NCBI GenBank assembly: GCA_003268905.1 | Contig: QLTU01000009.1 | Location: forward strand, 1-64,000 | DNA length: 64,000 nucleotides | Reading direction: 5' to 3' | DNA from: Acidovorax defluvii | GTDB taxonomy: Bacteria; Pseudomonadota; Gammaproteobacteria; Burkholderiales; Burkholderiaceae_C | In this document: positions 2,305 through 20,935 of the stretch, one piece after another | Layout: every line of letters starts with the position of its first letter | How positions within the stretch are numbered: position 1 is the first letter of the stretch | The notes under the pieces: model-generated | The model's database searches: none | Told to the model about the DNA's origin: nothing | Seen by the model: only the letters and a program-made list of their open reading frames with translations | Position numbers and translations under genes: made by a program

Positions 2305-3402
2305 TCAGATGCGGTGGTGCAGGCGGTCGGTGGCTCCGCGCAACCGCGTGATCAAGGCGGAGGCAATCTGGTTCAACGGAAGCACCTCATCTGCCGCACC
2401 GTGGGCAATGGCCTCGCGCGGCATGCCAAACACGATGCAACTCGCTTCATCCTGCACATAGTTGTAGCTGCCTGCGTCCTTCATCACCTTCATCGCAGCC
2501 GCTCCATCGTTGCCCATGCCCGTGAGCATGATGCCGAATGCATTGCGGCCCACCACGGCAGCCGCAGATTTGAAGAGCACCTCCACCGATGGCTTGTGAC
2601 GATTGACTGGTGCGCCATCGTCCACCACCGCGACATAATTGGCGCCACTGCGCGCCACATGAAACTGGGTGCCACCGGGGGCAATATAGGCATGCCCCGG
2701 AAGGATGCGCTCACCATTGACCGCTTCCTTGACCGTGATCTGACACAAGCCATTGAGCCGCGCCGCAAAACTGGTGGTAAAGCCGGGCGGCATGTGCTGG
2801 GTGATCACAATCGCTGGCGAGTCTGCCGGCATCTGCACCAGCACTTCGCGAATTGCCTCCGTGCCGCCGGTCGATGCACCGATGCAAATCAGCTTTTCTG
2901 TCGACAACCTGCCCAGCAACGCCGTTGCTGGTGCAGGATGAGCAACCCCACCGGACGAAGCGGACGCAGCCACCTCACGCGGCGCAGAACGGCGCACCTG
3001 AGCCACCGCGGCCACCCGGATCTTGTCTACGATCAGGGAGGCGAGCTCATTGATTCCGCTCGCCAGCCCCACGCGCGGCTTGGCCACAAAATCCACGGCA
3101 CCCAACTCCAGCGCTTTCATGGTGACCTCTGCACCGCGCTCTGTCAGGGTGGAAATCATCACCACCGGCATAGGTCGCAAGCGCATCAATCGGCCAAGAA
3201 AATCAATGCCGTCCATGCGCGGCATCTCAACGTCCAAGGTGATCACATCGGGGTTCAGTTCGCGAATCATTTCGCGTGCGACCAGTGGATCGTTCGCCGT
3301 GCCAACGCACTCCATGTCCCTCTGTCGGTTGATGATTTCCGCGAGCAAGCTGCGCACCAGCGCCGAATCATCCACCACCACCACTCGAATTTTCTTGCTC
3401 AT
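2305..3402 (-). CDS. cheB: Chemotaxis protein-glutamate methylesterase CheB
   Basis: Removes methyl groups from chemoreceptor glutamates once phosphorylated by CheA, giving adaptation. The N-terminal receiver domain has the acidic pair DD11-12 and the phospho-acceptor Asp57 ([11 protein letters not shown]). The C-terminal esterase domain carries the catalytic triad: Ser177 in GASTGG, His203 in TQHMPPGF and Asp299 in GMGNDGA. The 365-residue length is normal. It is the last gene of a leftward block cheA'-cheW-cheR-cheD-cheB, 15 bases after cheD. The gene itself looks intact, but its partner kinase upstream is truncated, so phosphorylation would need another CheA. Confidence 0.96.
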
Positions 3403-3417
3403 TCCCTCACACCTTCC

Positions 3418-4125
3418 TCAAAACAGATCCACCGAACCACCAGATGTGGTCTTGGCAACGATCGCTGCATTGCCGCGAACCTCCTGAGCCACAAGTGTTT
3501 CGGGGTGGGTATGGGCCAGCCGCTTGACCATGGCTTTGCCGGTTACGGGGAAAAAAACCACTTTGCGTGGATAGATATCCAGCACGTCCTCAGACATGAT
3601 GGGAATACGTTCCGTCTGAAGATAGTTCAGCACGAAATTGGTGTTGCGCTCTCCCACATTCATCGTGGTGAAGTTGTGCATGACCTGGGCTCCGCCAAAA
3701 ATCTTGGCTTGCATCGTCTCACGCCGGGCGCCGAGCTTGAGCATCTCATTGATCAGCAACTCCATGGCGTAAGACCCATAGCGGCCCGAGGCATCTGCCA
3801 TATCCCCGTCTGGAAGCATGAAATGGTTCATTCCACCAATGCGGGCTCTGCTGTCCCACAGGCAAGCCGCAATGCATGACCCCAGCACCGTCATGATGAT
3901 CATGTTCTCGTCCGACACAAAGTATTCACCCGGCAACACCTTCACAGCGTTGTGCTGGAAATGATGGTCGGCGTAAAAAAACGATGCCTCACCAGGTTTG
4001 CGCGCCTGGGCTTTCAACCCCTGCAGCGACGACTCTTTCGCAACCGCAGTGCCAGTGGAGTAAACGTCTGCGCTCAAGGGGGCAATGCGCGGCGCACGCC
4101 GCCGCTCTGTGGTGTCAAATGCCAT
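3418..4125 (-). CDS. cheD: Chemoreceptor glutamine deamidase CheD
   Basis: Deamidates specific glutamines of chemoreceptors. The catalytic Cys84 lies in VLGSCIAACLWD and the catalytic His101 in GGMNHFMLP, the two hallmark positions of the family. An N-terminal extension of about 60 residues precedes the core, giving 235 residues (longer than many CheD proteins, usual in this group of bacteria). It lies between cheR and cheB in the leftward chemotaxis block, with 84 bases separating it from cheR. Confidence 0.95.
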   Translation of the reverse strand: MAFDTTERRRAPRIAPLSADVYSTGTAVAKESSLQGLKAQARKPGEASFFYADHHFQHNAVKVLPGEYFVSDENMIIMTVLGSCIAACLWDSRARIGGMNHFMLPDGDMADASGRYGSYAMELLINEMLKLGARRETMQAKIFGGAQVMHNFTTMNVGERNTNFVLNYLQTERIPIMSEDVLDIYPRKVVFFPVTGKAMVKRLAHTHPETLVAQEVRGNAAIVAKTTSGGSVDLF

Positions 4126-4209: not shown

Positions 4210-5121
4210 TCAACGCCGTTCGTACACCGTTTTGCCACGCAGGGTAAAGAGATCCCGTGATTCGCTGAAATTTTCGGCATGGCCAACGAACAACATTCCG
4301 CCCGGCTTGAGCACCCGATGGATTCGCTCCAGCACCTTCCGCTGGGTCGGGGCGTCAAAATAAATCATGACATTGCGACAAAAAACCACATCAAAAGACT
4401 CCCGGAAAGGCCAGTCGTCGCGGATCAGGTTCACGCTGATGAACTCGATTGCCTTGCGCATCTCGGGTTTGGCGCGAACCATGCCTTCATTGCCGGCCTT
4501 TCCACGCAGGAAAAAATGCCGAAGGCGCTCGGGGCTGAGCCCTTTGACGTTGTCCACCCGATAAACACCTTGTGCCGCAGTCGCCAGTACGCGCGAGTCG
4601 ATATCACTGGCCGTCAGCTTGAAAGGTGCATTCGGGCCCAGCGCTTCCAGCGCAGTCATGACAATGGAATATGGCTCTTCCCCGGTGGATGCCGCATTGC
4701 ACCAAACCCGCCACGGCGTGCCAGAAGGCTTGCTCTTCAGATGCGCAGCAAAAATTTCAAAATGGTGCTGTTCACGGAAAAATGCCGTCAAATTAGTGGT
4801 CAAGGCATTCACGAACTCTTGCCACTCGGGACCGTCATGCTTTTCCAGCCAGCTCAGATACTCATTAAAGCTCGTATGCCCCGTCTCCCTGAGACGACGC
4901 GAGAGTCGGCTGTAAACCATTGCGTGCTTGCCATCGTGCAAACTGATGCCAGCGCGCTGGTAAATGAGTCCCTGGACCCGCGCGAAATCGGCCGTTGTCC
5001 AGACAAATTCACGCCCTTGCGAAAGGGGGCCGGAGGACGCCGTTGCAGCAACGGCAGTATCCGCCCTGCCGGAAAGAGTGCGCGTTCGCGCCGCAGTTGA
5101 AGGGGTGGCAGTCGAGGACAT
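4210..5121 (-). CDS. cheR: Chemotaxis protein methyltransferase CheR
   Basis: SAM-dependent methylation of receptor glutamates, the reaction opposed by CheB. The N-terminal helical domain (about 35-105) is followed by the methyltransferase fold, with NLTAFFRE, the SAM-binding NAASTGEEPYS loop and FCRNVMIYFD, all standard CheR motifs. The first 35 residues are low-complexity Ser/Thr/Ala, so a slightly later start cannot be excluded. It sits between cheW and cheD. At 303 residues it is full length and shows no defect. Confidence 0.95.
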   Translation of the reverse strand: MSSTATPSTAARTRTLSGRADTAVAATASSGPLSQGREFVWTTADFARVQGLIYQRAGISLHDGKHAMVYSRLSRRLRETGHTSFNEYLSWLEKHDGPEWQEFVNALTTNLTAFFREQHHFEIFAAHLKSKPSGTPWRVWCNAASTGEEPYSIVMTALEALGPNAPFKLTASDIDSRVLATAAQGVYRVDNVKGLSPERLRHFFLRGKAGNEGMVRAKPEMRKAIEFISVNLIRDDWPFRESFDVVFCRNVMIYFDAPTQRKVLERIHRVLKPGGMLFVGHAENFSESRDLFTLRGKTVYERR

Positions 5122-5206: not shown

Positions 5207-5695
5207 CTACTCGTCCGTAGTCACCAAACCCATGTCCACACTGGACATCAATTTCTCAATGTCCAGCAGGATGAGCATGCGCTCGCCTACCGAGCCCAGA
5301 CCCAAGATACAACTGTTGTCGATGGCGCTTTCAATATCGGGGGCGGCGCGAACACTGCCCGAGGCCAGTTCCATGACATCGCTGACCGAGTCCACCACAA
5401 TCCCGACCACACGCTGACGCAGATTCAGAATGATCACCACCGTAAAGGTGTTGTAGTCGGCCTGGGTGCAGTTGAACTTGATGCGCATGTCCACGATGGG
5501 CACGATCGTTCCCCGCAAATTGACCACGCCTTTGATGAACTCTGGTGCATTGGCAATGCGGGTGGGAGGCTCGTAACCCCGAATTTCCTGAACCTTCAGG
5601 ATGTCGATGCCGTACTCTTCCTGGTCGAGCCTGAACGTCAGATACTCCCGGGCACTGGACGCAGTGGTTTCTTCTGATTTTTCCATCACACTCAT
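5207..5695 (-). CDS. cheW: Chemotaxis coupling protein CheW
   Basis: Couples receptors to the kinase CheA. The reading frame begins [16 protein letters not shown] and contains [33 protein letters not shown] and the later [11 protein letters not shown], all typical of the CheW SH3-like double barrel. I chose the ATG at 5695 because AAGGAAG precedes it at good distance; a start six codons earlier would use that Shine-Dalgarno as coding sequence. 162 residues. It lies 54 bases downstream of the cheA remnant, which has lost its own 5' end and therefore any promoter previously shared. Confidence 0.94.
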
Positions 5696-5749
5696 GGTGA
5701 TTCTTCCTTTCAAGACAGCGCCTGCAACAACCGGCGCAGGCGCAAGAAT

Positions 5750-6649
5750 CTAGTGGCGTGCCCGTCGCACCAGCCCACCCGTATCCAGAATAAGGGCCAC
5801 GGTGCCGTCGCCCAAAATCGTGGCCCCCGACACATTGGGAACTTTGCGATAGTTGGATTCGAGGTTCTTGACCACCACTTGGTGCTGACCCAGCAACTCA
5901 TCCACCAGCAGGGCGACACGGCTACCGTCTGCTTCCACTACCACCATGATGTTGCTGGACTTGCTGGCGTCGAAGCGAGGCACCTGGAAAATCTTTTCCA
6001 GGGCAATCACGGGCATGTATTCGTCCCGCACCTTGACCAACTGCGACCCTTGCGCCACTGTGCTGACATCTTCGGGGTTGACCTGGAACGACTCGACCAC
6101 CGACGACAACGGAAGAATGTAGACCTCGTCGCTGACGCCCACGGACATGCCATCCATGATGGCCAACGTCAGGGGCAGGCGCACGGACACCCTCATCCCG
6201 TAGCCTTCTGCCGAATCGATCTCGACCGAGCCGTTGAGCGCCGCAATGTTTCGCTTGACAACGTCCATTCCCACACCACGGCCTGACACGTCCGTAACCT
6301 CATCGGCGGTGGAAAATCCCGGTGCAAAGATAAGCTGCCAGACATCGGCGTCACTCATGTGCTCGGACACATCAAGACCGCGCTCCTGCGCTTTGCTCAG
6401 TATCTTTTCGCGCGACAGCCCTTTGCCGTCATCTCGCACCTCGATCACGATCGAGCCGCCCTGGTGAGAGGCTGATAGCGTAATGGTGCCGTGCTCCGGT
6501 TTGCCTTTTGCCAGACGATCGGCAGGCATTTCGATGCCGTGATCGCAACTGTTTCGCACCAGGTGAGTCAACGGGTCGGTGATTTTTTCAACCAGACCCT
6601 TGTCGAGTTCGGTGGCCTCACCCAGCGTCACAAAATCCACCTTCTTCCC
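5750..6649 (-). pseudogene. cheA: cheA, 3' portion only (kinase core and CheW-like domain)
   Basis: The surviving 299 codons begin at GKKVDFVTLGE. They contain the H-box-like LVRNSCDHGIE, the ATP-binding DDGKGL, PGFSTADEV and GRGVGMDVV motifs and a complete regulatory P5 domain ending SGATILGDGTVALILD. Missing are the P1 HPt domain with the phosphorylated His, P2, and the P3 dimerisation helices: more than half of a normal CheA. The frame stays open rightward to 6907, but those extra 86 codons are the antisense of flhF and resemble nothing in CheA. The product could not autophosphorylate in the normal way. The break abuts flhF' head to head at about 6650. Confidence 0.9.
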
Positions 6650-6665
6650 GATCAAGACCAGCGGC
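6645..6665. other. Rearrangement junction cheA'::flhF'
   Basis: Left of about 6649 the minus strand codes for CheA. Right of about 6651-6678 the plus strand codes for the C-terminus of FlhF. Both genes are cut at their 5' sides, leaving no space for promoters of either operon. No repeat or insertion sequence is visible at the join. Exact placement within a few bases is uncertain because ATC/GAT codons fit either side. Confidence 0.85.
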
Positions 6666-6935
6666 TCGCAGCAAGCCATCCTTTCGAAGGTGGACGAGGC
6701 CGTCAAGCTGGGCCCCGCCATGGATGCACTGATCCGCCACCAGATGGTGCTGCGCGGCATCACCAATGGCCAGCGCGTCCCTGAAGACTGGGAAACCGCC
6801 GATGCGCACAAACTCATCAGCACGTCGATGCGCGCGCCCACCAAGTCGGCTTTTGACCCCAAGGCAACCGATCTGGACTTCTTCTTCTCCCACTCGACCG
6901 ACCCCATGACCGAACGGGAGTTTGTGGATGCTTGA
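6651..6935 (+). pseudogene. flhF: flhF, 3' end only (SRP-type GTPase fragment)
   Basis: The plus-strand frame from the junction reads QAILSKVDEA, then GPAMDALIRHQ and the FlhF/SRP-GTPase signature TNGQRVPEDW, ending with a DLDFFF tail. This is the C-terminal end of FlhF, the GTPase that places the flagellum at the pole. Only about 94 codons remain of a protein usually over 400 residues. The P-loop and most of the G domain are missing, so it cannot work. Its stop overlaps the start of the next gene by 8 bases (ATGCTTGA), the usual flhF-flhG coupling. Confidence 0.85.
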
Positions 6936-7731
6936 CACCAGTTTTCACCAGGGCGCCGGCCTGCACAGCTTCACACCACAGTCCGAATTGCGCGTGCTGG
7001 CCGTAGCCAGTCAGGAACAGGCAGAAAGCGGCCTGGAGATGGAAACCCTCTGGCAGCTGTGCGCCAGCCTGCAGCGACTGGGTTACCCGGTGGTGGTACT
7101 GGATGGCACTGCCTATGAGACCGAGGCATCCCCCGGTCTCCACCACCTGCTCAGACAAGCCCCCTGGAACGAAGGCGCCAGCCTGGAGGCGGATGGAAAC
7201 GTATCGTCCCTGGCCGTCCTGCCGGCTGCCAAGGGGTTATCGGAACTGGTGCGCATCGCACACGCAACCTATGCACCTCCCCTGCAGGGGCTTCTGCCTT
7301 ATTTTCGAGCCTACGGGCTGCTGGTACTTCACGCACCGGCCAGCGTGCTGGGCCCGTTGCTCACGCACACGGCCACAACGCCCCTGGTCGTGATGCCAAA
7401 GGGTGCCGCAGGCGTGCTCACCAGCTACAAACACCTCAAGCAGATCGCACAGCACTCGGGTTTGCCATGCACCGTGGCTGCGGTACTGCAGGGCAACGGA
7501 GCGCCGGAACGCAGCAAAGCACAGGGTGCACTGCGCACCTTGCAGCAATGCGCAGACCGTCACCTGGGAGGGCGGATGCACACCACCACACTATCTGTCG
7601 ACAATGGTCAGGATATACAGCGGCTGGCCTTGCAACTGCTGGAAAACGCGGGCACCATTGGCGGATCGCTGTCTGCAATGCCCACCCACAACCTGACCGG
7701 ACTGCCTTCGCATGGTGTTCGGAGCCACTGA
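6928..7731 (+). CDS. FlhG-position protein, MinD/ParA-like fold without P-loop
   Basis: A 267-residue protein between flhF' and fliA, the usual place of FlhG, the MinD-type ATPase that limits flagellar number. The weak pattern fits a MinD fold: an LRVLAVAS first strand, a middle LLVLHAPAS strand, then TTPLVVMPKGAAGVLTSYKHLKQI resembling the MinD segment after the second Walker motif. The deviant Walker A (KGGVGKS) is absent, however; the N-terminus reads QSELRVLAVASQEQAES. It is therefore a degenerate FlhG or a structural relative unlikely to hydrolyse ATP. The ATG at 6928 overlaps the flhF stop. With flhF broken, its native promoter is lost. Confidence 0.7.
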   Translation: MLDTSFHQGAGLHSFTPQSELRVLAVASQEQAESGLEMETLWQLCASLQRLGYPVVVLDGTAYETEASPGLHHLLRQAPWNEGASLEADGNVSSLAVLPAAKGLSELVRIAHATYAPPLQGLLPYFRAYGLLVLHAPASVLGPLLTHTATTPLVVMPKGAAGVLTSYKHLKQIAQHSGLPCTVAAVLQGNGAPERSKAQGALRTLQQCADRHLGGRMHTTTLSVDNGQDIQRLALQLLENAGTIGGSLSAMPTHNLTGLPSHGVRSH

Positions 7732-7735
7732 TCTG

Positions 7736-8452
7736 ATGTATACCGCCAAAGGCCAGCTCGACCGTGATGCGCTGATCCGCCAGCACGTACCGCTGGTTCG
7801 ACGGATTGCCCACCACATGATTGCCAAGCTGCCCCCCAATGTGGAGGTGGACGACCTGATCCAGGTGGGAATGATGGGTCTGGCAGAAGCACTGTCCCGC
7901 TACGAAGCCACGCAAGGTGTTCAGTTCGAAACCTTTGCCACCCAGCGCATCCGCGGAGCCATGCTGGATGAGTTGCGCGAGGGCGACTGGATGTCCCGAA
8001 GCTCCCGCAAGAGCCAGAAAGACATCGAACACGCCGTGCGTCGGCTGGAACAAAAGCTGGGGCGCAGCCCCCTGGAGTCAGAAATTGCCGCAGACATGGG
8101 CATGACCCTTCCCGAATACCAAAGCCTGCTCGGCAAGGTACGGGGCACCCAGCTGGTGTACCTGGAAGACATGACCCACGGCAACGAAGACGACGATGGT
8201 TTTCTGGACCGCCACGTTGCCGACAGCGATGCCGACCCCGTCGAACTACTGCGCGACCACCGGCTCCGCACCTCTTTGGTTCAGGCCATTCAGAGCCTGC
8301 CCGAACGGGAGCAGCACATCATGGGCATGTATTACGAACATGACATGAATCTGAAGGAAATTGCGGCTGTGCTGGGCGTCACAGAATCACGGGTGTGCCA
8401 GTTGCACAGCCAGTCGATTGCCCGCCTTCGCGCAAAAATGCGCAGCCACTGA
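7736..8452 (+). CDS. fliA: Flagellar sigma factor FliA (sigma-28)
   Basis: Directs RNA polymerase to late flagellar promoters. Region 2 reads HVPLVRRIAHHMIAKLPPNVEVDDLIQVG followed by YEATQGVQFETFATQRIRGAMLDELR, which is diagnostic for FliA. Region 3 (LGRSPLESEIAADMGM) and region 4 (LPEREQHIMGMYY, LKEIAAVLGVTESRVCQLHSQ) are complete. I prefer the ATG at 7736 (MYTAKGQLDRDA) with GGAG 11 bases upstream; an in-frame ATG at 7712 overlapping the previous gene is possible. About 238 residues, full length. Its activity would be held by FlgM, encoded nearby. Confidence 0.95.
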   Translation: MYTAKGQLDRDALIRQHVPLVRRIAHHMIAKLPPNVEVDDLIQVGMMGLAEALSRYEATQGVQFETFATQRIRGAMLDELREGDWMSRSSRKSQKDIEHAVRRLEQKLGRSPLESEIAADMGMTLPEYQSLLGKVRGTQLVYLEDMTHGNEDDDGFLDRHVADSDADPVELLRDHRLRTSLVQAIQSLPEREQHIMGMYYEHDMNLKEIAAVLGVTESRVCQLHSQSIARLRAKMRSH

Positions 8453-8528: not shown

Positions 8529-8897
8529 TCAGCTCGCAGACCGGTAGATGCGGGCCACACTGCCGGCATTGCGCCCGCCCATGGCGCTTCCATATGTGGC
8601 GGCAGCATCTGCGGGGGGTAGCAAACCTGCGGCTTGCCGGTCGGTGATGGCCGCCAGGCGGGCCAGGCTCTCACGTTGAACCGCGAGCAAAGCGCCGACG
8701 GCCTGCAGGCGCTTTTGCAGGCCAGCAGGCGCAACACCTTGCCGAGAAATCTGTTCCATGACTTGTGACAGCTGTGCTGCTGCGTTGCGCAGCTGGGTGC
8801 TACCCGTTTCGAGCGCCTGTGGATCTGCAGCCAAAAGCGCAGCAGAAATGCCCTGCAGTTGGTGTTCTACGGTGGTGAGCGCGTCTTCCAGTTGCAT
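8529..8897 (-). CDS. flgN: Flagellar export chaperone FlgN
   Basis: A small 122-residue all-helical protein with heptad-like leucines (LEDALTTVEHQLQGISAAL; LTRLAAITDRQAAGLLPP region). It ends with an Ala/Gly-rich tail and matches FlgN-type chaperones that keep hook-filament junction proteins FlgK and FlgL export-ready. Sequence conservation in this family is poor. The call rests on size, helix pattern and position directly after flgM in a flgA-flgM-flgN leftward arrangement, standard in beta- and gammaproteobacteria. Confidence 0.8.
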   Translation of the reverse strand: MQLEDALTTVEHQLQGISAALLAADPQALETGSTQLRNAAAQLSQVMEQISRQGVAPAGLQKRLQAVGALLAVQRESLARLAAITDRQAAGLLPPADAAATYGSAMGGRNAGSVARIYRSAS

Positions 8898-8936
8898 GGT
8901 GCCTGTGTGCGGGTGAAGACGTTATGGGGAAACGGG

Positions 8937-9254
8937 TTACCCGCGTGAGCGGGTGAGTATTTCCTGGGCGTTCGACAACATCTTGTCGGCAATGGCCCCG
9001 GCATCCACGGTGAACGTGCCTTGATCGATGGCTGCTCGCACTGCCTTGACCCGACCGGCGTCGAAATCTCCGGCCGTTCGCGCCGTCTGGGCAAGGGTTC
9101 GGGCGCTCATGGACACCGTAACGGGCACACCAGCGGCCGACGCCGAGCTTGCGCCTTTCGTTGCTTCTTCCGCTGCTGCAGGGGTTTTTGTCTGTTTGGA
9201 CAGCCCTGTTTGCGCGAGTGCTCCCGGGAGTTCCGGTTTTTGACCAATCTTCAT
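8937..9254 (-). CDS. flgM: Anti-sigma-28 factor FlgM
   Basis: Binds and inhibits FliA until the hook is complete, then is exported. The 105-residue protein begins MKIGQKPELPG and has a disordered Lys/Ala/Thr-rich first half. The conserved C-terminal sigma-binding helices follow: FDAGRVKAVRAAIDQGTFTV, then AGAIADKMLSNAQEIL. The start at 9254 gives the family-typical MKI beginning; a start 14 codons earlier reads unlike FlgM. A clear sigma-28 promoter lies just upstream (9299-9325), giving the usual feedback. Confidence 0.93.
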   Translation of the reverse strand: MKIGQKPELPGALAQTGLSKQTKTPAAAEEATKGASSASAAGVPVTVSMSARTLAQTARTAGDFDAGRVKAVRAAIDQGTFTVDAGAIADKMLSNAQEILTRSRG

Positions 9255-9298
9255 CGCTCTCTCCACCACCCCGTTCGATGTGGGGCACAGTAGCAATG

Positions 9299-9325
9299 TT
9301 TTCGACCTATCCGGGCCAGACTTTA
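9299..9325 (-). promoter_or_regulatory. Sigma-28 promoter of flgM
   Basis: Read on the minus strand: TAAAGTCT, an 11-base spacer, then GTCGAAAA. The sigma-28 consensus is TAAAGTTT-N11-GCCGATAA, so the -35 and -10 elements match at 7/8 and 6/8 positions with exact spacing. It ends about 45 bases before the flgM start, so FliA would drive its own inhibitor. Confidence 0.75.
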
Positions 9326-9347
9326 GCCATTTCTGGCCAGTGGTGCA

Positions 9348-10127
9348 TCAAAGAGATGCAGCTATTGTCCCATCTTCATTGACAATGCCCGATATCAATC
9401 GACCATTACTCATGCGGATGCGAACAGTCTGCCCCACGGTTCCGTTCGACATTGCCTGGCCCGACGATGTTACCGAATAGCCGGGGCCCTGAGCCACCAC
9501 ACGAACCTGTGCACCCGCGCGGAAAACACTGGGTGCCCGCACCATGGACTGCCGCACCGCCTGCCCCGCCATCAACTGGCGGGATGCCACCTGCCCCACC
9601 CATTGCTCGGGGTTGGCGATGACAGGCGCCACTTCGGCAGCCCAATCCACCTCGGATTCGCTGGCATCCGCCGCCGTCAACACGGTTCCGGTGGTGACAT
9701 TGTTGTTCAACACCCAGGCCGGGCCAAAAGCCTTGATGGTCACCGGCAGAAAAACGTTCCAGGCCGTGGCACCCTCCACGCAGCGAAGCCCCAGGCGCGT
9801 GCGTCCCCACAGGCGGGAGCCGGCTGGCAAGTAGGGCTCTACGCGTGCGCAAGGCGCCAGGCGCAACCGGCTATCGAGCGTGCCCACGCTGACTTCCATG
9901 CGCAAGGGCAAACCACCAGACGGGCTGCTCGCCAGCGCATTGTCCAGCCAGCGCTGCGTCAGCGGCCCCAGATCAGCGGCGGGGTCCATCACAGCCTGTG
10001 CCAGCAACGGACCGCCGTACATTGCCGACCCCAAACCCGCCAGCACCAGCGTTGCACGCAAAGCGGTACGCCGCAACAGCGGCAGGAACACCCGCAGCAA
10101 GTGGGGAAAGGGGTTAAGGGGCAGCAC
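9348..10127 (-). CDS. flgA: Flagellar P-ring assembly chaperone FlgA
   Basis: Periplasmic chaperone for FlgI. After a signal peptide with a hydrophobic core around ATLVLAGLGSAMYG, the protein carries the SAF domain region VLNNNVTTGTVLTAADASESEVDW. The FlgA C-terminal pattern follows: AGQAVRQSMVRAPSVFRAGAQVRV and GTVGQTVRIRMSNGRLISGIV. I chose the GTG at 10127 because AGGAG lies 7 bases upstream; an ATG at 10172 is an alternative with no good Shine-Dalgarno. 259 residues. It is divergent from flgB and heads a flgA-flgM-flgN series, although flgM has its own promoter. Confidence 0.92.
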   Translation of the reverse strand: MLPLNPFPHLLRVFLPLLRRTALRATLVLAGLGSAMYGGPLLAQAVMDPAADLGPLTQRWLDNALASSPSGGLPLRMEVSVGTLDSRLRLAPCARVEPYLPAGSRLWGRTRLGLRCVEGATAWNVFLPVTIKAFGPAWVLNNNVTTGTVLTAADASESEVDWAAEVAPVIANPEQWVGQVASRQLMAGQAVRQSMVRAPSVFRAGAQVRVVAQGPGYSVTSSGQAMSNGTVGQTVRIRMSNGRLISGIVNEDGTIAASL

Positions 10128-10339
10128 GGCAATCTCCTGGGCGGATGGGCTGCCAGCCACCGGGCAGACCATTTCACCGCTGCAACTATAGGCAGACCTT
10201 GGCGGGATGAACCCGAAAACTGCACGCCAATGTCCGCTTTCTTCGCGCTTTAGAAAAATCCGGCGATTTCCATAATCAAGCCACGCCGGAAACCCTCTCC
10301 AGGGCCCGGCGCCACTGCAACCCAGAGTGTGAGGCACAC

Positions 10340-10783
10340 ATGCTTGACAAGATGACCAACCGGCTGGACTTTCACGGCAACGCACTTTTGCTGCGCGCCG
10401 AGCGCCAGCGCGCCATCGCCAGCAACATTGCCAATGCCGACACGCCCGGGTACGTGGCCCGCGACTTCAACTTTGCCCAGGCCATGCGTGACGCCACTGG
10501 CTCTTCCGCAGGCAACAGCGCAGCCCGCCTGGCCAGCAGTGGCGCAGGGGCTTCCGGCACCACCGACGCGCGCCACATTCCGCTGCCCGCCTCAGGCGCT
10601 GGCGCCGGATCACAAAGCACGCTGGGGTACGCCATGCAAACCCAGCCCAGCTTGGACAACAACACCGTGGACCTCGACCGGGAACGCGCCAACTTTGTGG
10701 ACAACGCCGTGCGTTATGAGGCCACGCTGCGCTTCCTCAACGGGCAATCCAAAACCATGCTCAGCGCCATTCAGGGCCAATAA
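10340..10783 (+). CDS. flgB: Flagellar proximal rod protein FlgB
   Basis: The first gene of the rightward rod-hook operon. The N-terminal rod signature ALLLRAERQRAIASNIANADTPGYVARDF is clear, and the C-terminal helix VDLDRERANFVDNAVRYEATLRFLN is typical. Ala/Gly/Ser-rich middle. 147 residues, normal. The divergent gap to flgA (10128-10339) must contain the operon promoter; I could not identify a convincing sigma-54 or sigma-28 site in it. Confidence 0.96.
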   Translation: MLDKMTNRLDFHGNALLLRAERQRAIASNIANADTPGYVARDFNFAQAMRDATGSSAGNSAARLASSGAGASGTTDARHIPLPASGAGAGSQSTLGYAMQTQPSLDNNTVDLDRERANFVDNAVRYEATLRFLNGQSKTMLSAIQGQ

Positions 10784-10813
10784 GCCAGGCCGCGCAGACA
10801 ACGGGAAATCACC

Positions 10814-11218
10814 ATGTCCATGTTCTCCATCTTCAGTGTTTCAGGCAGCGCCATCAGCGCCCAGTCACAGCGGCTCAACGTCGTGGCCAGCAACCTGGCC
10901 AACGTGGATGCCGTGGCCGGGCCGGACGGCCAGGCGTACAAGGCCCGTCAGGTGGTCTTCCAGACCACCCCCATGGGCGCAGACAGCTCTGCCGGTGTGC
11001 GCGTGAGCGCCATCAACGAAAACAACACGCCGGGGCGGCGCATCCACGACCCGGGGCACCCTTCCGCCGATGCAGAGGGCTACGTGACCCATTCCAACGT
11101 GAACGCCGTGGACGAGATGGTCAACATGATTTCCGCATCGCGCTCCTATCAGAACAACGTCGAGGTCATGAACACGGCCAAGACGTTGCTGCTCAAGACC
11201 CTGCAAATGGGCCAGTAA
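10814..11218 (+). CDS. flgC: Flagellar proximal rod protein FlgC
   Basis: Rod component assembled after FlgB. The N-terminus has SAQSQRLNVVASNLANVDAVAG and the C-terminal end VNAVDEMVNMISASRSYQNNVEVMNTAKTLLLKTLQMGQ, both standard for FlgC. 134 residues. It follows flgB by 30 bases with GGAAA ahead of the ATG and precedes flgD by 17 bases. Confidence 0.96.
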   Translation: MSMFSIFSVSGSAISAQSQRLNVVASNLANVDAVAGPDGQAYKARQVVFQTTPMGADSSAGVRVSAINENNTPGRRIHDPGHPSADAEGYVTHSNVNAVDEMVNMISASRSYQNNVEVMNTAKTLLLKTLQMGQ

Positions 11219-11235
11219 TTTCAGGACAAGCCACC

Positions 11236-11901
11236 ATGATCAACAGCGCAACCTCCGCCACTTCGGGCTCTACGGCCGTGGGCACCACGGCAACCAGGGC
11301 CGACACCACGACCGATGCCTCGGCGGGACAGGACCGGTTCCTGAAGCTTCTGGTGGCACAGCTCAACAACCAGGATCCGATGAATCCGCTGGACAACGCG
11401 CAGATGACCTCGCAGATCGCGCAGATCAACACGGTGACCGGAATCCAGCAACTCAATGACACCGTCAAGGGGCTAGTCAGCCAGTTTGCTGCACAGCAAA
11501 TGCTGCAGGGCAGCGCCATGGTGGGGCATCAGGTGCTGGCAGAAGGCAATACCCTGTCCGTGGACACCGAGAGTGGCGAGGCTACCGGCGCCTTCGACCT
11601 CGCCGGATCGGCCGCCAGCGTGAAGGTCCAGGTGCTCGACGCCGCCGGCAAAGAGGTGGGGACTGTCGACATGGGCAGCCTCCCGGCAGGCCGCTACAAC
11701 TTTGCATGGGATACCGCTGGCTACCAGGGCGACAGCGCGCTGCGCTTCAAGGTGCTGGCCGCCAATGGCGACACCAGCGTGGGATCCACCGCACTGATGA
11801 TCGACAAGGTCACCGCCGTCAGCATGGACAACGGCAGCCTGCAGCTGCAACTTTCGCGCGGCGGCATGACCACCCAGGCAGGCATCAAGGCCATTTTGTA
11901 A
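11236..11901 (+). CDS. flgD: Hook cap / scaffolding protein FlgD
   Basis: Caps the growing hook so FlgE can polymerise. The conserved N-terminal part reads FLKLLVAQLNNQDPMNPLDNAQMTSQIAQINTVTGI, the classic FlgD motif. Two beta domains follow (tudor-like and Fn3-like, GRYNFAWDTAGYQGDSALRFKV). 221 residues, normal. It lies between flgC and flgE. The C-terminal beta segment lines up with known FlgD proteins and shows nothing unusual. Confidence 0.96.
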   Translation: MINSATSATSGSTAVGTTATRADTTTDASAGQDRFLKLLVAQLNNQDPMNPLDNAQMTSQIAQINTVTGIQQLNDTVKGLVSQFAAQQMLQGSAMVGHQVLAEGNTLSVDTESGEATGAFDLAGSAASVKVQVLDAAGKEVGTVDMGSLPAGRYNFAWDTAGYQGDSALRFKVLAANGDTSVGSTALMIDKVTAVSMDNGSLQLQLSRGGMTTQAGIKAIL

Positions 11902-11928
11902 TTTCAAGAATCACCAGGAGTACACACC

Positions 11929-13200
11929 ATGGCTTTCCAACACGGCCTCTCGGGACTGAACGCCTCCAGCAAGAACCTGGACGTCATTGGTCACAACATC
12001 GCCAATGCCAACACCACGGGTTTCAAGTCGTCGCGCGCCGAGTTCGCGGACCTGGTGGCATCGTCCATGGGAGCGGGCGGTGGCGCCAACTATGGCATCG
12101 GCGTCGAAGTGGCGGCGGTGGCCCAGCAGTTCTCGCAGGGCAACGTCACGGTGACGGGCAACAACCTGGATGTGGCCATCAACGGCAACGGTTTTTTCAA
12201 GGTGCAGCAGGCCGATGGCTCGGCCGCATACACGCGTGCCGGCAATTTCAAGCTCGACAAGACGGGCGATCTGGTCACCAACGGCGGTGCCCAGGTGATG
12301 GGATTCAGGGTGGACCCCGCCACGGGCCTCAGCACCTCTGAGGCACAGCCCCTGAGCTTCCCAACGGGAGCCCCCATCCAGGCCAAGCAAACCGAATCGA
12401 TCAAGGCCACACTGAACCTGGACGCGCGCGCCAAGGATTCTGCGGGCGACGCGACCGCCACGCCTCCCGTTCCCGCCACGCCGCGCTCCACTTACGGCAC
12501 GTCGATCAATGTGTACGACACCCAGGGCGTGGCCACGCCGGTGAACCTGTACTTCATGAAGACAGCCAACCCCAACGAATGGGCGGTCTACAACCAGCTC
12601 GATGACCCGACGGCAGTTCCTCCCGTGACGGCCATCTCCCTGGGAACCATTGCGTTCGACGAAAACGGCAAGATCGATCCCGCCACAGCAACACTCACAC
12701 TGACGGTCTCCCCCACCGCCAACCCGAATGCAGGGACCGCAGCACCGGCCGTGGCAAATTTCCCCGTGGACATCGACATGAGCGGAGCCACCCAGTTCGG
12801 CAGCAAGTTCGCCGTGGCGGATCTCTCGCAAGACGGCTATGCCTCGGGCGACCTCACGAGCATCAATATCTCCAACGACGGCATGGTCATGGCCAGTTAC
12901 TCCAATGGCGTGACCCGTTCCGAGGCGCAGGTGGCGCTGGCCAATTTCCGCAACCCGCAGGGCCTGCTGGCCGTGGGCGGCAACAACTGGGTGGAGTCGT
13001 TTGATTCCGGCCCCGCCGTGCTGGGAAAACCCGGCGACGGCAACTTTGGCGCGCTGCGCTCGGGGGCGCTTGAAGACTCGAACGTGGACCTCACCGCCGA
13101 GCTGGTCAACATGATGACCGCCCAGCGCGCCTACCAGGCCAACGCCCAGACTATCAAGACGCAAGACCAGGTGATGTCGACCCTGGTGAACCTGAGATGA
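11929..13200 (+). CDS. flgE: Flagellar hook protein FlgE
   Basis: The hook subunit. The N-terminal rod/hook signature (HGLSGLNASSKNLDVIGHNIANANTTGFK) and a second motif (NNLDVAINGNGFFKVQ) are present. The C-terminus (LEDSNVDLTAELVNMMTAQRAYQANAQTIKTQDQV) shows the coiled tail common to axial proteins. 423 residues with a variable surface domain in the middle. A GGAG lies upstream of the ATG. An unusually long GC-rich gap (185 bases) separates it from flgF. Confidence 0.97.
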   Translation: MAFQHGLSGLNASSKNLDVIGHNIANANTTGFKSSRAEFADLVASSMGAGGGANYGIGVEVAAVAQQFSQGNVTVTGNNLDVAINGNGFFKVQQADGSAAYTRAGNFKLDKTGDLVTNGGAQVMGFRVDPATGLSTSEAQPLSFPTGAPIQAKQTESIKATLNLDARAKDSAGDATATPPVPATPRSTYGTSINVYDTQGVATPVNLYFMKTANPNEWAVYNQLDDPTAVPPVTAISLGTIAFDENGKIDPATATLTLTVSPTANPNAGTAAPAVANFPVDIDMSGATQFGSKFAVADLSQDGYASGDLTSINISNDGMVMASYSNGVTRSEAQVALANFRNPQGLLAVGGNNWVESFDSGPAVLGKPGDGNFGALRSGALEDSNVDLTAELVNMMTAQRAYQANAQTIKTQDQVMSTLVNLR

Positions 13201-13202
13201 AG

Positions 13203-13365
13203 CAACACCCCCCTGTGGCGCTGCGCGCCTTCCCCCCGCTCTCGCAACGCTGCGCGCTGCGGGCGAGGGGACGCAGCCAGCGCGGCGGGGCGGCCCTTGC
13301 GCGGCTGCCCTGGCCCTGGGCGCGCCAGTTTCTGGCGCCGCAGGCGCAGTGCGGCTCGGTGAAAC
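13203..13365. repeat. GC-rich intergenic element between flgE and flgF
   Basis: About 160 bases of very GC-rich sequence with internal inverted segments (for example CCCCCCGCTCTCGCAACGC facing GCTGCGGGCGAGGGG) interrupt the otherwise tight flg operon. From memory, similar blocks (CGCTGCGCGCCTTCCCC ... GCGCGGCGGGGCGGCCCTTGCGCG) recur between genes in Comamonadaceae genomes. No second copy occurs in this window, so the repeat status is recalled, not shown. Confidence 0.45.
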
Positions 13366-13385
13366 ACTGAAAGGAAAGCAGGACC

Positions 13386-14126
13386 ATGGACCGCATCATC
13401 TACACCTCCATGACGGGCGCCAACGCCGCCGCGCACCGGCAGGCGGTGCTGGCCAACAACCTGGCGAACGCATCCACCACCGGGTTCCGTGCCGAAATGT
13501 CCACCTTCCGCTCGGTGCCACTGCAGGGCGAGGGGTCTACCACGCGTGTCTTCGCGCTGGAGGCCACGTCTGGCCACGTCACGGCGTCCGGCCCCGCACA
13601 AACCACGGGGCGCAACCTGGATGCCATGGCCAAGGGCAATGCCTGGTTCGCCGTGCAAGGGCTCGATGGCACCGAGACATACACCCGCGCAGGCCATTTC
13701 CAGGTCTCCCAGGGCGGGCAACTGGTCACCCCCACCGGACTGCCGGTGCTGTCGGATGGCGGTGCGCCCATCGATATTCCGCCCAACGCCACCATTTCCC
13801 TGGGTGCGGATGGCACGGTCACGGCCAAGACGGGCAACGAGCCACCGGTTCCCGTGGCCCGCCTCAAACTTGCCACGGCCACCGCCGACAACCCGGTGCG
13901 ACGGGGCGACGACGGCCTGTTCCGCGCCGCCAACGGTGACGCCCTGCCGGCCGACCCCAACGCGCAAATGCTGGCCGGTGCGCTGGAGGGCTCCAATGTG
14001 AACGCGGTCGAATGCATGGTGGGCATGATTGCCGCGTCCCGCCAGTTCGAGCAGCAAATGAAGCTGCTGCAAACCGCAGAGAGTGATGACAAGGCCGCAG
14101 GCCAGCTACTGAGCCTCAACGGCTGA
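13386..14126 (+). CDS. flgF: Flagellar proximal rod protein FlgF
   Basis: Rod protein. The N-terminus MDRIIYTSMTGANAAAHRQAVLANNLANASTTGFRAEM is typical FlgF. The middle motif RNLDAMAKGNAWFAVQ and the C-terminus GALEGSNVNAVECMVGMIAASRQFEQQMKLLQTAE support it. 246 residues. It follows the GC-rich spacer and lies 17 bases upstream of flgG. AAAGGAAA precedes its ATG. Confidence 0.96.
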   Translation: MDRIIYTSMTGANAAAHRQAVLANNLANASTTGFRAEMSTFRSVPLQGEGSTTRVFALEATSGHVTASGPAQTTGRNLDAMAKGNAWFAVQGLDGTETYTRAGHFQVSQGGQLVTPTGLPVLSDGGAPIDIPPNATISLGADGTVTAKTGNEPPVPVARLKLATATADNPVRRGDDGLFRAANGDALPADPNAQMLAGALEGSNVNAVECMVGMIAASRQFEQQMKLLQTAESDDKAAGQLLSLNG

Positions 14127-14143
14127 AGAAAAGGACAACCGCC

Positions 14144-14926
14144 ATGATGAATTCACTGTGGATCGCCAAGACCGGCATGACCGCCCAGCAAACCCAGCTG
14201 GACGTGATCTCGCACAACCTCGCCAACGTCTCCACCACTGGTTTCAAGCGCAACCGTGCAGAGTTTCAGGACCTGATCTATCAGAACCTGCGCCAGGTTG
14301 GCGCCCAGACCACCGAGGAAAACCAGTTGCCTACGGGCCTGCATCTGGGCCTGGGCGTGAACGTGGTGGCTACCAGCCGCAATTTCACGCAGGGCGGCCT
14401 GCAACAGTCGGGCAACAACCTTGATGTGGCCATCAATGGCGACGGGTTTTTCGAGGTCACTTTGCCCGATGGCACCACCGGCTACACACGGGACGGTTCG
14501 TTCCAGCTCGACGCTCAGGGCCGCATAGTCACCTCCGGCGGCCTGCCCGTGGCCCCCGGCATCACCGTGCCCGCGGGCACGAAAAGCATCAGCATCAGCG
14601 AAAACGGTGAAGTGAGTGCCATCGTGGCGGGCTCCGTCGCACCGCAGCCACTGGGCTCGCTGTCTATGTCCAGCTTCGTCAACTCTGCCGGCCTGCAGCC
14701 GGTGGGCCAGAACATGTTCAAGGAGTCGGCTGCGTCCGGCGCTCCCCAGCAGGGCACGCCCGGCACCAACGGCCTGGGCATCGTGCGCCAGGGCTTTCTG
14801 GAGACTTCCAACGTCAACGTGGTGGAAGAACTGGTCAACATGATCCAGACCCAGCGCGCCTACGAGATGAACTCCAAGGCCATCCAGACTTCGGACCAGA
14901 TGCTGGCCAAACTGTCGCAAATGTGA
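14144..14926 (+). CDS. flgG: Flagellar distal rod protein FlgG
   Basis: Forms the distal rod that passes through the P and L rings. The N-terminus (MMNSLWIAKTGMTAQQTQLDVISHNLANVSTTGFKRNRAEFQDL) and the C-terminus (GFLETSNVNVVEELVNMIQTQRAYEMNSKAIQTSDQML) are almost invariant FlgG sequences. 260 residues. AAAAGGA precedes two adjacent ATGs; either could be used. It is followed by flgH with an 11-base gap. Confidence 0.97.
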   Translation: MMNSLWIAKTGMTAQQTQLDVISHNLANVSTTGFKRNRAEFQDLIYQNLRQVGAQTTEENQLPTGLHLGLGVNVVATSRNFTQGGLQQSGNNLDVAINGDGFFEVTLPDGTTGYTRDGSFQLDAQGRIVTSGGLPVAPGITVPAGTKSISISENGEVSAIVAGSVAPQPLGSLSMSSFVNSAGLQPVGQNMFKESAASGAPQQGTPGTNGLGIVRQGFLETSNVNVVEELVNMIQTQRAYEMNSKAIQTSDQMLAKLSQM

Positions 14927-14937
14927 GGAGCACCACC

Positions 14938-15633
14938 ATGAACACCCTCCTGCGCCTGATGGGCTGCGCCGCCCTCGCCGTGCTCGCCACGGGCTGCGCC
15001 AGCATCAACCCGCCACCGCCTGTGGACGTGCTGCCCACCACACTGCCACCCGTGGCCACCATGCCCCGGCCCGCCGGTCCTGCCACGGGCAGCCTGTTTC
15101 ATGCCGCCAGCTTTCGGCCCGCGTTCGAAGACCAGCGCGCCCGCCTGATCGGTGATCTGGTAACGATCACGATCAAGGAAGAAATCGACGCCAAGCAAAA
15201 CAGCACGTCGAACGTCGGCCGGTCGTCCAACACCGAGGGCCGCATCACGGCGCTGCCGCTTGTTTCAAGCAGCCTGGCTGCCAAGCTTGCTGGCAAGACG
15301 GCCATCGGTGCGGGCTATGAAAACACCTTCGAGGGCAAGGGGGACACCCTGGCCAAGAACGATTTCAAGAGCAACATCACCGCCATCGTCACCGACGTGC
15401 TGCCCAACGGGCATCTGGTCGTTGCGGGCGAAAAGCAGGTGGGCGTGAACCGCAGTGTGGACGTGCTGCGCTTTTCGGGCATCGTGGATCCACGCCGTCT
15501 GGCGCCTGGCAGCGTCATCGATTCCCGGTACGTGGCCAACGTGCGCGTGATCTCGCGCGGCATGGGCGAGCAGGCCGAGGCGCAGGCCATGGGCTGGCTG
15601 GCACGGGCGTTCAACACGGTCACGCCGTTCTGA
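14938..15633 (+). CDS. flgH: Flagellar L-ring lipoprotein FlgH
   Basis: Outer-membrane ring of the basal body. The N-terminus is a lipoprotein signal (LMGCAALAVLATGCAS, lipobox ATGC). The conserved body contains DQRARLIGDLVTITIKEEIDAKQNSTSNVGR, then FEGKGDTLAKNDFKSNITAIVTDVLPNGHLVVAGEKQVGVN and RVISRGMGEQAEAQAMGWLARAFN. I use the ATG at 14938 because GGAG lies 8 bases upstream; a start at 14923 would precede the signal by five odd residues. 231 residues. Confidence 0.96.
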   Translation: MNTLLRLMGCAALAVLATGCASINPPPPVDVLPTTLPPVATMPRPAGPATGSLFHAASFRPAFEDQRARLIGDLVTITIKEEIDAKQNSTSNVGRSSNTEGRITALPLVSSSLAAKLAGKTAIGAGYENTFEGKGDTLAKNDFKSNITAIVTDVLPNGHLVVAGEKQVGVNRSVDVLRFSGIVDPRRLAPGSVIDSRYVANVRVISRGMGEQAEAQAMGWLARAFNTVTPF

Positions 15634-15653: not shown

Positions 15654-16634
15654 ATGCACACCCTGCGCACACTGCTTCAACGCTCGGCGGCCCTGGTCCT
15701 GGTGATGTGCTGCGGCCTTGCTGGCGCAGCCGATTTTCGCGACCCGGTGGGGCAACCCTTTCTGGTCTGGCCCAATATTCCGGTCGTGCGCGCCACCGAT
15801 CTGGGCGAATACGAGCACGATCGCAAGCTGTTTGCAGACCTGCACACCGGCAAGGGTGATCCGGCCACGGTGCTTGCCGCACTGCAGGCCGTGGACAGCC
15901 TGCAGGCCCACCACGAGCGCACGGCGCTGGCCCAGCTGGGGCGCACGCTCAACACCCAATTGATTGGCGAGCTGGACCGCCAGGCACGGCGCATCAACAC
16001 CCGTTCGCCCAAGCTGCGCTTCGAGTTTGCCGGCATCACGCCCGAAGAGTTGCAGCGCGCCTCTGCGGCCGATGCCCGGGCGCTGGATGCCCTCAAGGCC
16101 AAGGCGGGCCGGATGGCGATGGTGGCCTACATCACCTACACACGGCTGGAGGGTTCGCTGGTGCAGGCCACCGCCACGCTGGTCAAGCTGGGCAGTGGCG
16201 AATCGCAAAGCTTCACCGTGACGGTGCCCGCGCCCACGCTGGCGGATGCGCTGGCGCGCGACATCTTTGATTACTTTCAGGGCACGCGCTTTTCTCAGCA
16301 CCAGAACCCGCTGGCCGCACGGGAATGGCTGATGGCCGCGCCGGGACACGCCGATCAGCTGGTCTCGCGCGAGGCGGCGCAGCGCTACTGCCAGTCGCAG
16401 AACGCGGCCCTGCCCACGGCAGGGGAGCTGGAGACGGCCGAGGCATCGGGTTTTTATGGCGGCGGCGTGGCGCTGCGGCCCACCGGCGTCTACCACATCC
16501 AGTCGGGTCTGTACGACACGGCACAGGCGCTGGCAGACAAGGTGCGCGCCAACCACATTGCCAGCGTGCCCAATGGCCACTACTACTGCATACGCAACCC
16601 GGTGGACACCAGGGCGGCCAGGGTGCGCAGGTAA
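15654..16634 (+). CDS. Secreted protein of unknown function inserted between flgH and flgI
   Basis: A 326-residue protein with a signal peptide (LVLVMCCGLAGA then AADF). I do not recognise a named family for the body. The N-terminal two thirds are helical and charged. The last 90 residues (AQRYCQSQNAALPTAGELE, then a Gly-rich stretch, HIQSG and HYYCIRN) loosely resemble the C-terminal domains of DUF1566/Lcl or sulfatase-modifying-like proteins, with two Cys that could form a disulfide. It starts 21 bases after flgH, in the same direction, so it is co-transcribed with the ring genes. flgH and flgI are normally adjacent. A periplasmic or envelope role near the P/L rings is inferred from place and signal only. 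Confidence 0.75.
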   Translation: MHTLRTLLQRSAALVLVMCCGLAGAADFRDPVGQPFLVWPNIPVVRATDLGEYEHDRKLFADLHTGKGDPATVLAALQAVDSLQAHHERTALAQLGRTLNTQLIGELDRQARRINTRSPKLRFEFAGITPEELQRASAADARALDALKAKAGRMAMVAYITYTRLEGSLVQATATLVKLGSGESQSFTVTVPAPTLADALARDIFDYFQGTRFSQHQNPLAAREWLMAAPGHADQLVSREAAQRYCQSQNAALPTAGELETAEASGFYGGGVALRPTGVYHIQSGLYDTAQALADKVRANHIASVPNGHYYCIRNPVDTRAARVRR

Positions 16635-16718: not shown

Positions 16719-16828
16719 GATTACCCCCACCTCCCCGCACAAACCGGGGGCGAACACCGGCAATAAGGCGGCAGAAGCACGCTCTTTTCCCCTCTTTGCC
16801 GGCCGGGTGGCGCGCCACAATGGGTGCC

Positions 16829-17971
16829 ATGAAGACCTTGCCCCTCCCTCGCTTTGCATGGCTGCAGACACGCACGCTGTGGCTGGTGCTGGCCCTGTCC
16901 GTCACGGGACTCGTGGCGCCTGCCCATGCCTTGCGCATCAAGGAAGTGGCATCCGTGCAGGGCGTGCGCAGCAATCAGCTGTCGGGCTACGGCCTGGTGG
17001 TGGGGCTGGACGGCACGGGTGACCAGTCCACGCAGATGCCCTTTACAGCGCAGGCGATGGCCAACTACCTGCAGCAAATGGGCATCAGCCTGCCCCCGGG
17101 CACCAGCGCTCCGCAGCTCAAGAACGTAGCCACCGTGGTGATCACGGCCCAGTTGCCCGCCTTTGCGCAGCCGGGGCAGAACATTGACGTGGCCGTGTCC
17201 TCCATCGGCAATGCCAAGTCCCTGCGGGGCGGCACACTCATAGCCGCACCGCTGCGCGGTGCAGACGGCGAGATTTATGCCCTGGCGCAAGGCAACGTGG
17301 TGGTGGGCGGCGCCGGCGCCTCGGCCGGCGGCAGCAAGGTGCAGATCAACCACCTGAGCGCGGGCCGCATTCCCGGTGGCGCGCAGGTGGAGCGCTCGGT
17401 TCCCACGCCGCTGCACGTGGGCAGCACCATCACCCTGGGCCTTGATGCGGTGGACTTTCAGACCGCGCGCAAGGTGGCGCAGGCCATCAATGCCCGCCAG
17501 GGCGAGGGCACCGCCACCGCGCTGGACGGGCGCAGCGTGCAGGTGACGGCGCCGCAAGACCCAGGCAAACGGGTGAATTTCATCGCAGAGCTGGAAGAGC
17601 TGCAATTGCCCAACTCCACGCCCGCAGCCAAGGTGGTGATCAACGCCCGCACCGGCTCCATTGTGTTGAACCAGGCGGTGACGCTGGGGCCCTGCGCCAT
17701 CGCGCACGGCAATCTGTCCATCACCATCAGCAGCACGCCCGTCATCAGCCAGCCCAATCCCCTGTCGCAGGGAGTGACCGTAGTGGCGCAAAAAAGCGAC
17801 ATCGCCATCCAGAAGGAAGCGGGCAACGTCATCCAGATGCCACCGTCGCCGCAGCTGGCCGACGTGGTGCGCGCACTCAACTCCCTGGGCGCCACGCCCC
17901 AGGATCTGCTGGCCATTTTGCAGGCCATCAAGGCGGCCGGCGCCTTGAACGCCGAGCTCGAAGTGATCTGA
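16829..17971 (+). CDS. flgI: Flagellar P-ring protein FlgI
   Basis: Periplasmic ring around the rod. After a signal peptide ending APAHA, the mature protein starts LRIKEVASVQGVRSNQLSGYGLVVGLDGTGDQ, the near-invariant FlgI start. GTTLIAAPLRG-like (GGTLIAAPLRGADGEIYALAQGNVVVGG) and the C-terminal TPQDLLAILQAIKAAGALNAELEVI follow. About 380 residues. Starts at 16820 or 16829 are both possible; the latter has GGGTGCC upstream. flgA on the other side of flgB encodes its chaperone. Confidence 0.96.
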   Translation: MKTLPLPRFAWLQTRTLWLVLALSVTGLVAPAHALRIKEVASVQGVRSNQLSGYGLVVGLDGTGDQSTQMPFTAQAMANYLQQMGISLPPGTSAPQLKNVATVVITAQLPAFAQPGQNIDVAVSSIGNAKSLRGGTLIAAPLRGADGEIYALAQGNVVVGGAGASAGGSKVQINHLSAGRIPGGAQVERSVPTPLHVGSTITLGLDAVDFQTARKVAQAINARQGEGTATALDGRSVQVTAPQDPGKRVNFIAELEELQLPNSTPAAKVVINARTGSIVLNQAVTLGPCAIAHGNLSITISSTPVISQPNPLSQGVTVVAQKSDIAIQKEAGNVIQMPPSPQLADVVRALNSLGATPQDLLAILQAIKAAGALNAELEVI

Positions 17972-18020
17972 CCATGCCCTGCCCCACCAGCGCCCTGTCG
18001 GCCACGCACCAGGAGTCACC

Positions 18021-18926
18021 ATGGCTTTGACCCTGCCCTCTTCCGCGACCTCCAGCACCACCAACGCGCTGGCGGCCGATGCACGCTCGCTCAACGCCCT
18101 GAAATACGAAGCCGGGCAAAACAGCGCCCAGGCCGCCAAAGAGGCCGCCAAGCAGTTTGAATCGCTTTTCATGCGCGAGCTGATCAAGAGCATGCGCGAA
18201 GCCACCATGAAATCCGGCCTGATGGACGGTGCCCAGGGTGACCTGGGAACCGACCTGCTGGACCAGCAACTGTCGGTCAGCATGTCGGGCGCGCCCGGCG
18301 GCTTGTCAGAAGCCATTGCGCGCCAGCTTTCGCGCCAGATGGGTGGGGCCGACACCACCATCTCGGCACCGTCCACGCTCAGCCTGCCCGGCGTGACCTC
18401 ACGCAGCGCGGCCAGCAGCGCCACCGTGGCCACCGGCCCCGTGCCCAAGGGGCGGGACGGTTTTGTGCAGTCGCTCAGCGCCACCGCCGAGCGCGTGGCA
18501 CAAGACAGCGGCATTCCGGCCAGCTTCATGCTGGGCCAGGCAGGCCATGAAACCGGCTGGGGCAAGAGCGAGATCAAGAACGCCGACGGCTCCACTTCGT
18601 TCAACCTGTTTGGCATCAAGGCTGGCAAGGGTTGGACCGGCAAGGTGGCCGAGATCACCACCACCGAATACATCAACGGCAAGGCCCAGAAAGTAACGGC
18701 CAAGTTCCGCGCCTACGACTCGTACGAGGATTCTTTCCGCGACTACGCCCGGCTGATCAACGACAGCCCGCGCTACGAAAAAGCCCAGGCCACTGCCAGG
18801 ACCGGCTCGGCCGTGGCCTATGCCGCCGAGCTGCAGAAAGCCGGTTACGCCACCGACCCCGAGTACGCCAAAAAGCTCAGCAGCGCCATCAACAGTGCCC
18901 TGCGCGTGCAGCGCGCACAGGCCTGA
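18021..18926 (+). CDS. flgJ: Rod-binding protein and peptidoglycan hydrolase FlgJ
   Basis: Two-domain protein. The N-terminal rod-capping domain contains AAKEAAKQFESLFMRELIKSMREATMKSGLMDG. The C-terminal glucosaminidase domain (about 150-300) contains QDSGIPASFMLGQAGHETGWGKSEIKN with the catalytic Glu in GHETGWG, and later YDSYEDSFRDYARLINDSPRYEKA. It opens a hole in the cell wall for the rod. 301 residues, normal for the dual-domain form. It starts 49 bases after flgI. Confidence 0.96.
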   Translation: MALTLPSSATSSTTNALAADARSLNALKYEAGQNSAQAAKEAAKQFESLFMRELIKSMREATMKSGLMDGAQGDLGTDLLDQQLSVSMSGAPGGLSEAIARQLSRQMGGADTTISAPSTLSLPGVTSRSAASSATVATGPVPKGRDGFVQSLSATAERVAQDSGIPASFMLGQAGHETGWGKSEIKNADGSTSFNLFGIKAGKGWTGKVAEITTTEYINGKAQKVTAKFRAYDSYEDSFRDYARLINDSPRYEKAQATARTGSAVAYAAELQKAGYATDPEYAKKLSSAINSALRVQRAQA

Positions 18927-18942
18927 GCACACAAGGTAAGCC

Positions 18943-20904: not shown

Positions 20905-20935
20905 GAACAGGGCCCATGCCTGAACGGAGTCCATC

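Follow-up and report, generated by a model that had tools for sequence, protein, structure and literature searches.

In the window analysed here, positions 1 to 64,000 of contig C9 in a draft genome of Acidovorax defluvii (4.11 Mb in 83 contigs, scored 100% complete), the 3' parts of two motility genes, cheA and flhF, lie head to head. The question raised by this arrangement is whether everything that once lay between the two genes has been deleted, whether the missing parts have been moved elsewhere, or whether the contig has been wrongly joined, and what the answer means for the flagellum. An earlier reading of the letters alone, called below the sequence-only reading, had named all three possibilities. 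They are weighed here by comparison with related genomes and by a search of the rest of the genome.

The join between cheA and flhF

The minus-strand coding sequence of cheA breaks off at 6649, and that of flhF resumes on the plus strand at 6650-6652 (Table 1). What is left is the 3' end of cheA, 299 of about 715 codons, and 94 of the roughly 495 codons of flhF. Both genes are cut at this single join and have lost their 5' parts, as the sequence-only reading had claimed; the gap of some 30 bases that it saw between the two coding sequences is in reality 0-2 bases wide.

Table 1. Features on either side of the join, with positions in the window
Feature	Position	Strand	Basis
cheB, intact	2305-3402	-	CheB_methylest 3e-65
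cheD, intact	3418-4125	-	CheD 1.5e-33
cheR, intact	4210-5121	-	CheR 1.1e-54
cheW, intact	5207-5713	-	CheW 5.1e-37
cheA remnant, last 299 codons (P4 ATPase and P5 CheW-like domains)	5750-6649	-	Pfam
Deletion join, 0-2 bases fitting neither flank	6649-6652		Alignments to nine relatives and base-level comparison
flhF remnant, last 94 codons	6651-6935	+	Identity to intact FlhF
Gene in flhG position, intact	6925-7731	+	Homologue in the corresponding position in relatives, 67-87% identity among the matches listed
fliA (sigma 28), intact	7736-8452	+	NCBIfam FliA 7.1e-89
flgN-position gene, flgM, flgA-position gene, unbroken	8529-10130	-	FlgM_jcvi 1.5e-17; the other two by position; homologues in relatives
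flgB, C, D, E, F, G, H, unbroken	10340-15633	+	Names by order; homologues in relatives
flgI, flgJ, flgK, flgL, unbroken	16796-22210	+	FlgI 2.9e-136; FlgJ-type rod-binding and glucosaminidase domains; flgL Flagellin_N; homologues of all four

The cheA remnant gives Pfam matches to HATPase_c (4e-19) and CheW (1.9e-28), and neither Hpt nor H-kinase_dim was found in it by Pfam; the intact CheA of relative G003 has 715 amino acids and carries all four domains. Over its 299 residues the remnant is 95-96% identical to the protein of five relatives. The flhF remnant matches, weakly, the end of the Pfam family SRP54. It is 81-89% identical to FlhF in 17 of the 18 other same-genus genomes, and 71% identical over 75 residues in the eighteenth. 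Its open frame measures 122 amino acids, whereas the frame is intact, with 497-533 amino acids, in all 18. Two open reading frames cross the join, one of 385 amino acids on the minus strand (5750-6907) and one of 118 on the plus strand (6579-6935). Since each continues into sequence antisense to the other gene, both are read as accidental.

Ten same-genus relatives (Acidovorax group) were compared around flhF, with extra upstream sequence for five of them. The block comprising an ABC-F gene and cheB to cheA and the block comprising flhF and fliA have the same order and orientation as in the window in nine of the ten. In all nine, the alignment of the left flank stops at 6649; that of the right flank begins at 6649 in two and at 6652 in seven. 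Viewed base by base, at most two bases (GA) fit neither flank of the relatives. In the divergent tenth relative, G002, the match starts no earlier than 6667, and a search within 60 kb did not recover the left flank. Because both flanks are collinear in the relatives and keep their ancestral orientation, the join is, as judged from these alignments, not a product of chance.

The edges of the join lie 29610, 29793, 29759, 31305 and 29874 bases apart in five of the nine relatives, and 38093, 38675, 38268 and 40380 bases apart, as calculated from coordinates, in the other four. The interval between cheA and flhF is thus 38-40 kb long in G007, G008, G013 and G015, against 30-31 kb in the five others.

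The conserved orientation of the flanks also bears on the idea considered first, namely that an inversion with breakpoints in cheA and flhF, or else a translocation, had separated the halves of the two genes and left the missing ones elsewhere in the genome. Ends in both genes could in principle set two 3' parts head to head. The halves that remain, however, already stand in ancestral order and orientation, so that an inversion need not be invoked, and searches of the genome did not turn up the other halves. Such a rearrangement is extremely improbable.

In a wider survey of the family, a match to the end of FlhF was present in 296 of 399 genomes and missing from 103, so that many members of the family lack FlhF. 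Among the matches listed, the other FlhF frames shorter than 400 amino acids belong to G371, G068, G071 and G274 and all start less than 900 bases from the start of a contig. A half-deleted flhF was seen among these matches only at contig edges, and none of them represents a second case of the cheA-flhF join.

The missing interval

The relative G003 is the best match that spans the interval, with 29.6 kb between the edges. From the cheA side, its interval, with genes assigned by Pfam, starts with the 5' part of cheA (Hpt and dimerisation domains), a cheY-type regulator and a histidine kinase with a receiver domain. These are followed by fliR, fliP, fliN, fliM, fliL, fliK, fliI, fliH, fliG, fliF, fliT, fliS, fliD and fliC. 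The interval ends with a second flagellin gene, motA, motB, a second gene of cheY type, cheZ, flhB, flhA and most of flhF. The genes fliQ, fliO, fliJ and fliE are expected here as well and are not among the assignments made by the family searches. The sequence-only reading had guessed that motAB, cheYZ, flhBA and flhDC were lost. The first three pairs do lie in the interval; the guess failed for flhDC, as flhC, the gene of that pair that was searched for, is intact on contig C3. The loss is also larger than supposed, extending to most of the fli genes and two flagellin genes.

When the DNA of the G003 interval was compared with the A. defluvii assembly, the matches consisted of the two edges and pieces of 35-55 bases only, among the best 40 of 221 and the best 40 of 335 candidates. 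Because only these best candidates were scored, the claim of absence is carried by the family searches. These gave no match to FlhA anywhere in the genome, and the single match to Flagellin_N is flgL in the window. The G domain of FlhF was not found elsewhere: SRP54 gave two matches above the cut-off, both read as being of the Ffh/FtsY type, and one weak match below it. The dimerisation domain of CheA has one match in the genome, an open reading frame of 2041 amino acids on contig C6. The sequence-only reading, which had called for such a search, had expected neither a motor nor a chemotaxis kinase to be made; this holds for the flagellar CheA, but one CheA-type kinase remains.

On contig C6 (86000-98500, L076) a chemoreceptor (MCP) gene of 771 amino acids precedes the frame of 2041 amino acids, and both are unbroken. 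The pair is probably a type IV pilus chemosensory locus, presumably of the pil-chp kind.

The same searches help to decide whether two unrelated contig ends were joined by the assembler while the true interval was left unassembled or unbinned. In favour of such an error, the genome is a draft of 83 contigs and the join is known from assembled sequence. However, neither the interval nor the absent 5' halves were found on any contig, although the genome is scored as complete, and the edges offer the assembler no overlap: the words shared by the two edges in five relatives are no longer than those in control stretches. The premature stops in the chemoreceptor genes described below, moreover, look like the result of chemotaxis having ceased to be under selection. 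A wrong join is therefore very unlikely.

Recombination between repeats was also considered as the cause of the deletion and rejected, as no word shared by the edges exceeded the control; this test used the edge sequence of the relatives, the ancestral edge being gone in the A. defluvii strain. Neither an insertion sequence nor a repeat was found at the join, and inserted DNA beyond the 0-2 bases is absent.

It may be asked whether the interval was lost in several separate deletions, perhaps begun by an insertion sequence that was itself lost later. Successive losses ending at the same edges would look alike, and the deletion described for Xanthomonas fuscans carries a copy of ISXfu2 at its scar, as far as the account of it goes (PMC3826837). 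Against this stand the virtual lack of inserted DNA at the A. defluvii join, the unbroken state of the adjoining genes and the greater simplicity of one event. A stepwise loss is unlikely. The collinear flanks in the relatives and the failure to find the interval in the genome point instead to a deletion in one step, as the sequence-only reading had proposed.

The genes left behind

Twenty flg, fli and che genes left next to the join have full open frames with no internal stops and have not yet decayed. The flg genes among them are unbroken, just as they had appeared in the sequence-only reading, which took this as a sign of a recent loss; their state fits such a loss. The gene in the flhG position has no match in Pfam or NCBIfam, and all five named loci with a homologue of it are from Acidovorax. 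Between flgH and flgI lies a gene for 326 amino acids (15654-16634, plus strand), also with no Pfam or NCBIfam match; among the loci searched, a homologue was seen only in the draft genome G012, at 90% identity.

For 17 of 20 genes or remnants the ratio dN/dS on the A. defluvii branch does not exceed 0.17, with the reservation that several dS values are near saturation and that a draft metagenome assembly served as the sister genome. For the cheA remnant the ratio is 0.011, which indicates strong selection on cheA for most of that branch. Higher values were obtained for flgD (0.60), flgE (0.34) and flgH (0.31), and these would be compatible with relaxed selection in the three genes. No usable pair was available for flgK, flgL and the genes at 22283 and 15654. 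The branch ratios gave no clear signal of relaxed selection in the flg genes, as would be the case if the loss were recent relative to the branch. At flhF, the DNA of the closest named relatives (L044 and L045) differs by 9-11%. The flhF frame is intact in G012, taken as the genome of L045, which would place the loss after that split.

A further, independent indication comes from the chemoreceptor genes. Premature stops occur in four of its 20 MCP genes. Three of these have one in-frame stop each in conserved sequence (a TAA in C11, L074, and a TAA and a TAG in the two genes of C17, L073); the fourth, in C3 (L097), has a TAG and a probable frameshift. A control scan of 464 kb of the genome (400 kb and the 64 kb window) showed no premature stops: the codon-based scan of the 400 kb gave four candidates, all of which are adjacent gene pairs of different Pfam families, and the window yielded no candidate. 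The scan detected three of the four MCP stops and missed the one at C17:72408. If stops fell at random over 498 kb, the chance that all three found by the scan would be in MCP genes is 3e-4, a value that is indicative only, as the test was prompted by the data.

The MCP stops fit a relaxation of selection on chemotaxis. The rate seen in the MCP genes predicts about two stops in the remnant flg and che genes, and the chance of finding none is 0.14, so that the two sets of genes do not really differ. Among 146 of 508 matches listed for the MCPs of relatives, a list that favours the best-scoring genes, there were no internal stops and three frames shorter than 420 amino acids. Stops in MCP genes may be common in motile relatives too. 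Because the remnant genes are unbroken and stop codons are just starting to appear in the MCP genes, the loss looks recent, and this suggests an event that is young compared with the divergence from the closest intact relatives.

A proposed course of the loss and comparable cases

By combining these observations it is possible to propose how the present arrangement arose. Judging from the sequence comparisons, it very probably goes back to a single deletion of about 30-40 kb that reached from within cheA on the left to within flhF on the right, the ends presumably being joined by illegitimate recombination. The size is taken from relatives and is approximate for the strain itself, because their intervals span 29.6-40.4 kb. 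Non-homologous joining of the ends would fit both the lack of a repeat at the edges and the two or fewer unmatched bases.

The deletion would have taken with it cheY and cheZ and the genes for motor, switch, export apparatus, filament and stator, and it would have stripped CheA of its phosphate-donor and dimerisation domains and FlhF of most of its length. Because the genes of the interval are absent from the genome, the flagellum could not be made and the flagellar CheA would be gone; the cell is predicted to have neither a flagellum nor flagellar chemotaxis. FlhC, FliA, the rod and hook genes, CheB, CheD, CheR, CheW and the 20 MCP genes would be left without the machine that they serve. It is conceivable, and on the whole improbable, that the deletion released the chemoreceptors from selection, that FlhC, FliA, the rod-hook operon and the four Che proteins keep a role outside swimming (regulation by FlhC and FliA, for example) and that the stranded genes decay in a set order.

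The locus would represent a cleanly resolved loss of a whole organelle, apparently in one step and before the stranded genes had decayed. With intact relatives, an exact breakpoint and the first stops in the MCP genes, it offers a natural case in which the order of decay of a motility system could be followed.

A search of the literature found no report of the deletion described here. One-step losses of this sort are already known from other bacteria; the event is ordinary in kind and unusual in its cleanness. Convergent loss of flagellar genes in Pseudomonadota has been linked to lifestyle and genome size (PMC13063649). The general pattern of loss is alike, as far as the survey's account extends; the survey runs across genomes, whereas the case described here is one resolved event with its breakpoint. 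Within the same genus, natural loss of flhC deprived one of a pair of almost identical Acidovorax delafieldii strains of flagellar function (PMC12888815). There a regulator was lost, and the abstract mentions no loss of structural genes; here FlhC is intact and the structure is lost.

From what its published account conveys, the closest case is a flagellar deletion of 33 kb in X. fuscans subsp. fuscans 4834-R, found in non-motile natural variants, in which 34 contiguous genes, including those for the rod, rings, hook and filament, were lost with a copy of ISXfu2 in their place (PMC3826837). Both are deletions in the flagellar cluster of a normally motile genus, and both left MCP genes behind. 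They differ, on the same account, in that the A. defluvii deletion took the fli, mot and flh genes, half of cheA and most of flhF, kept the flg genes and has no insertion sequence at its scar.
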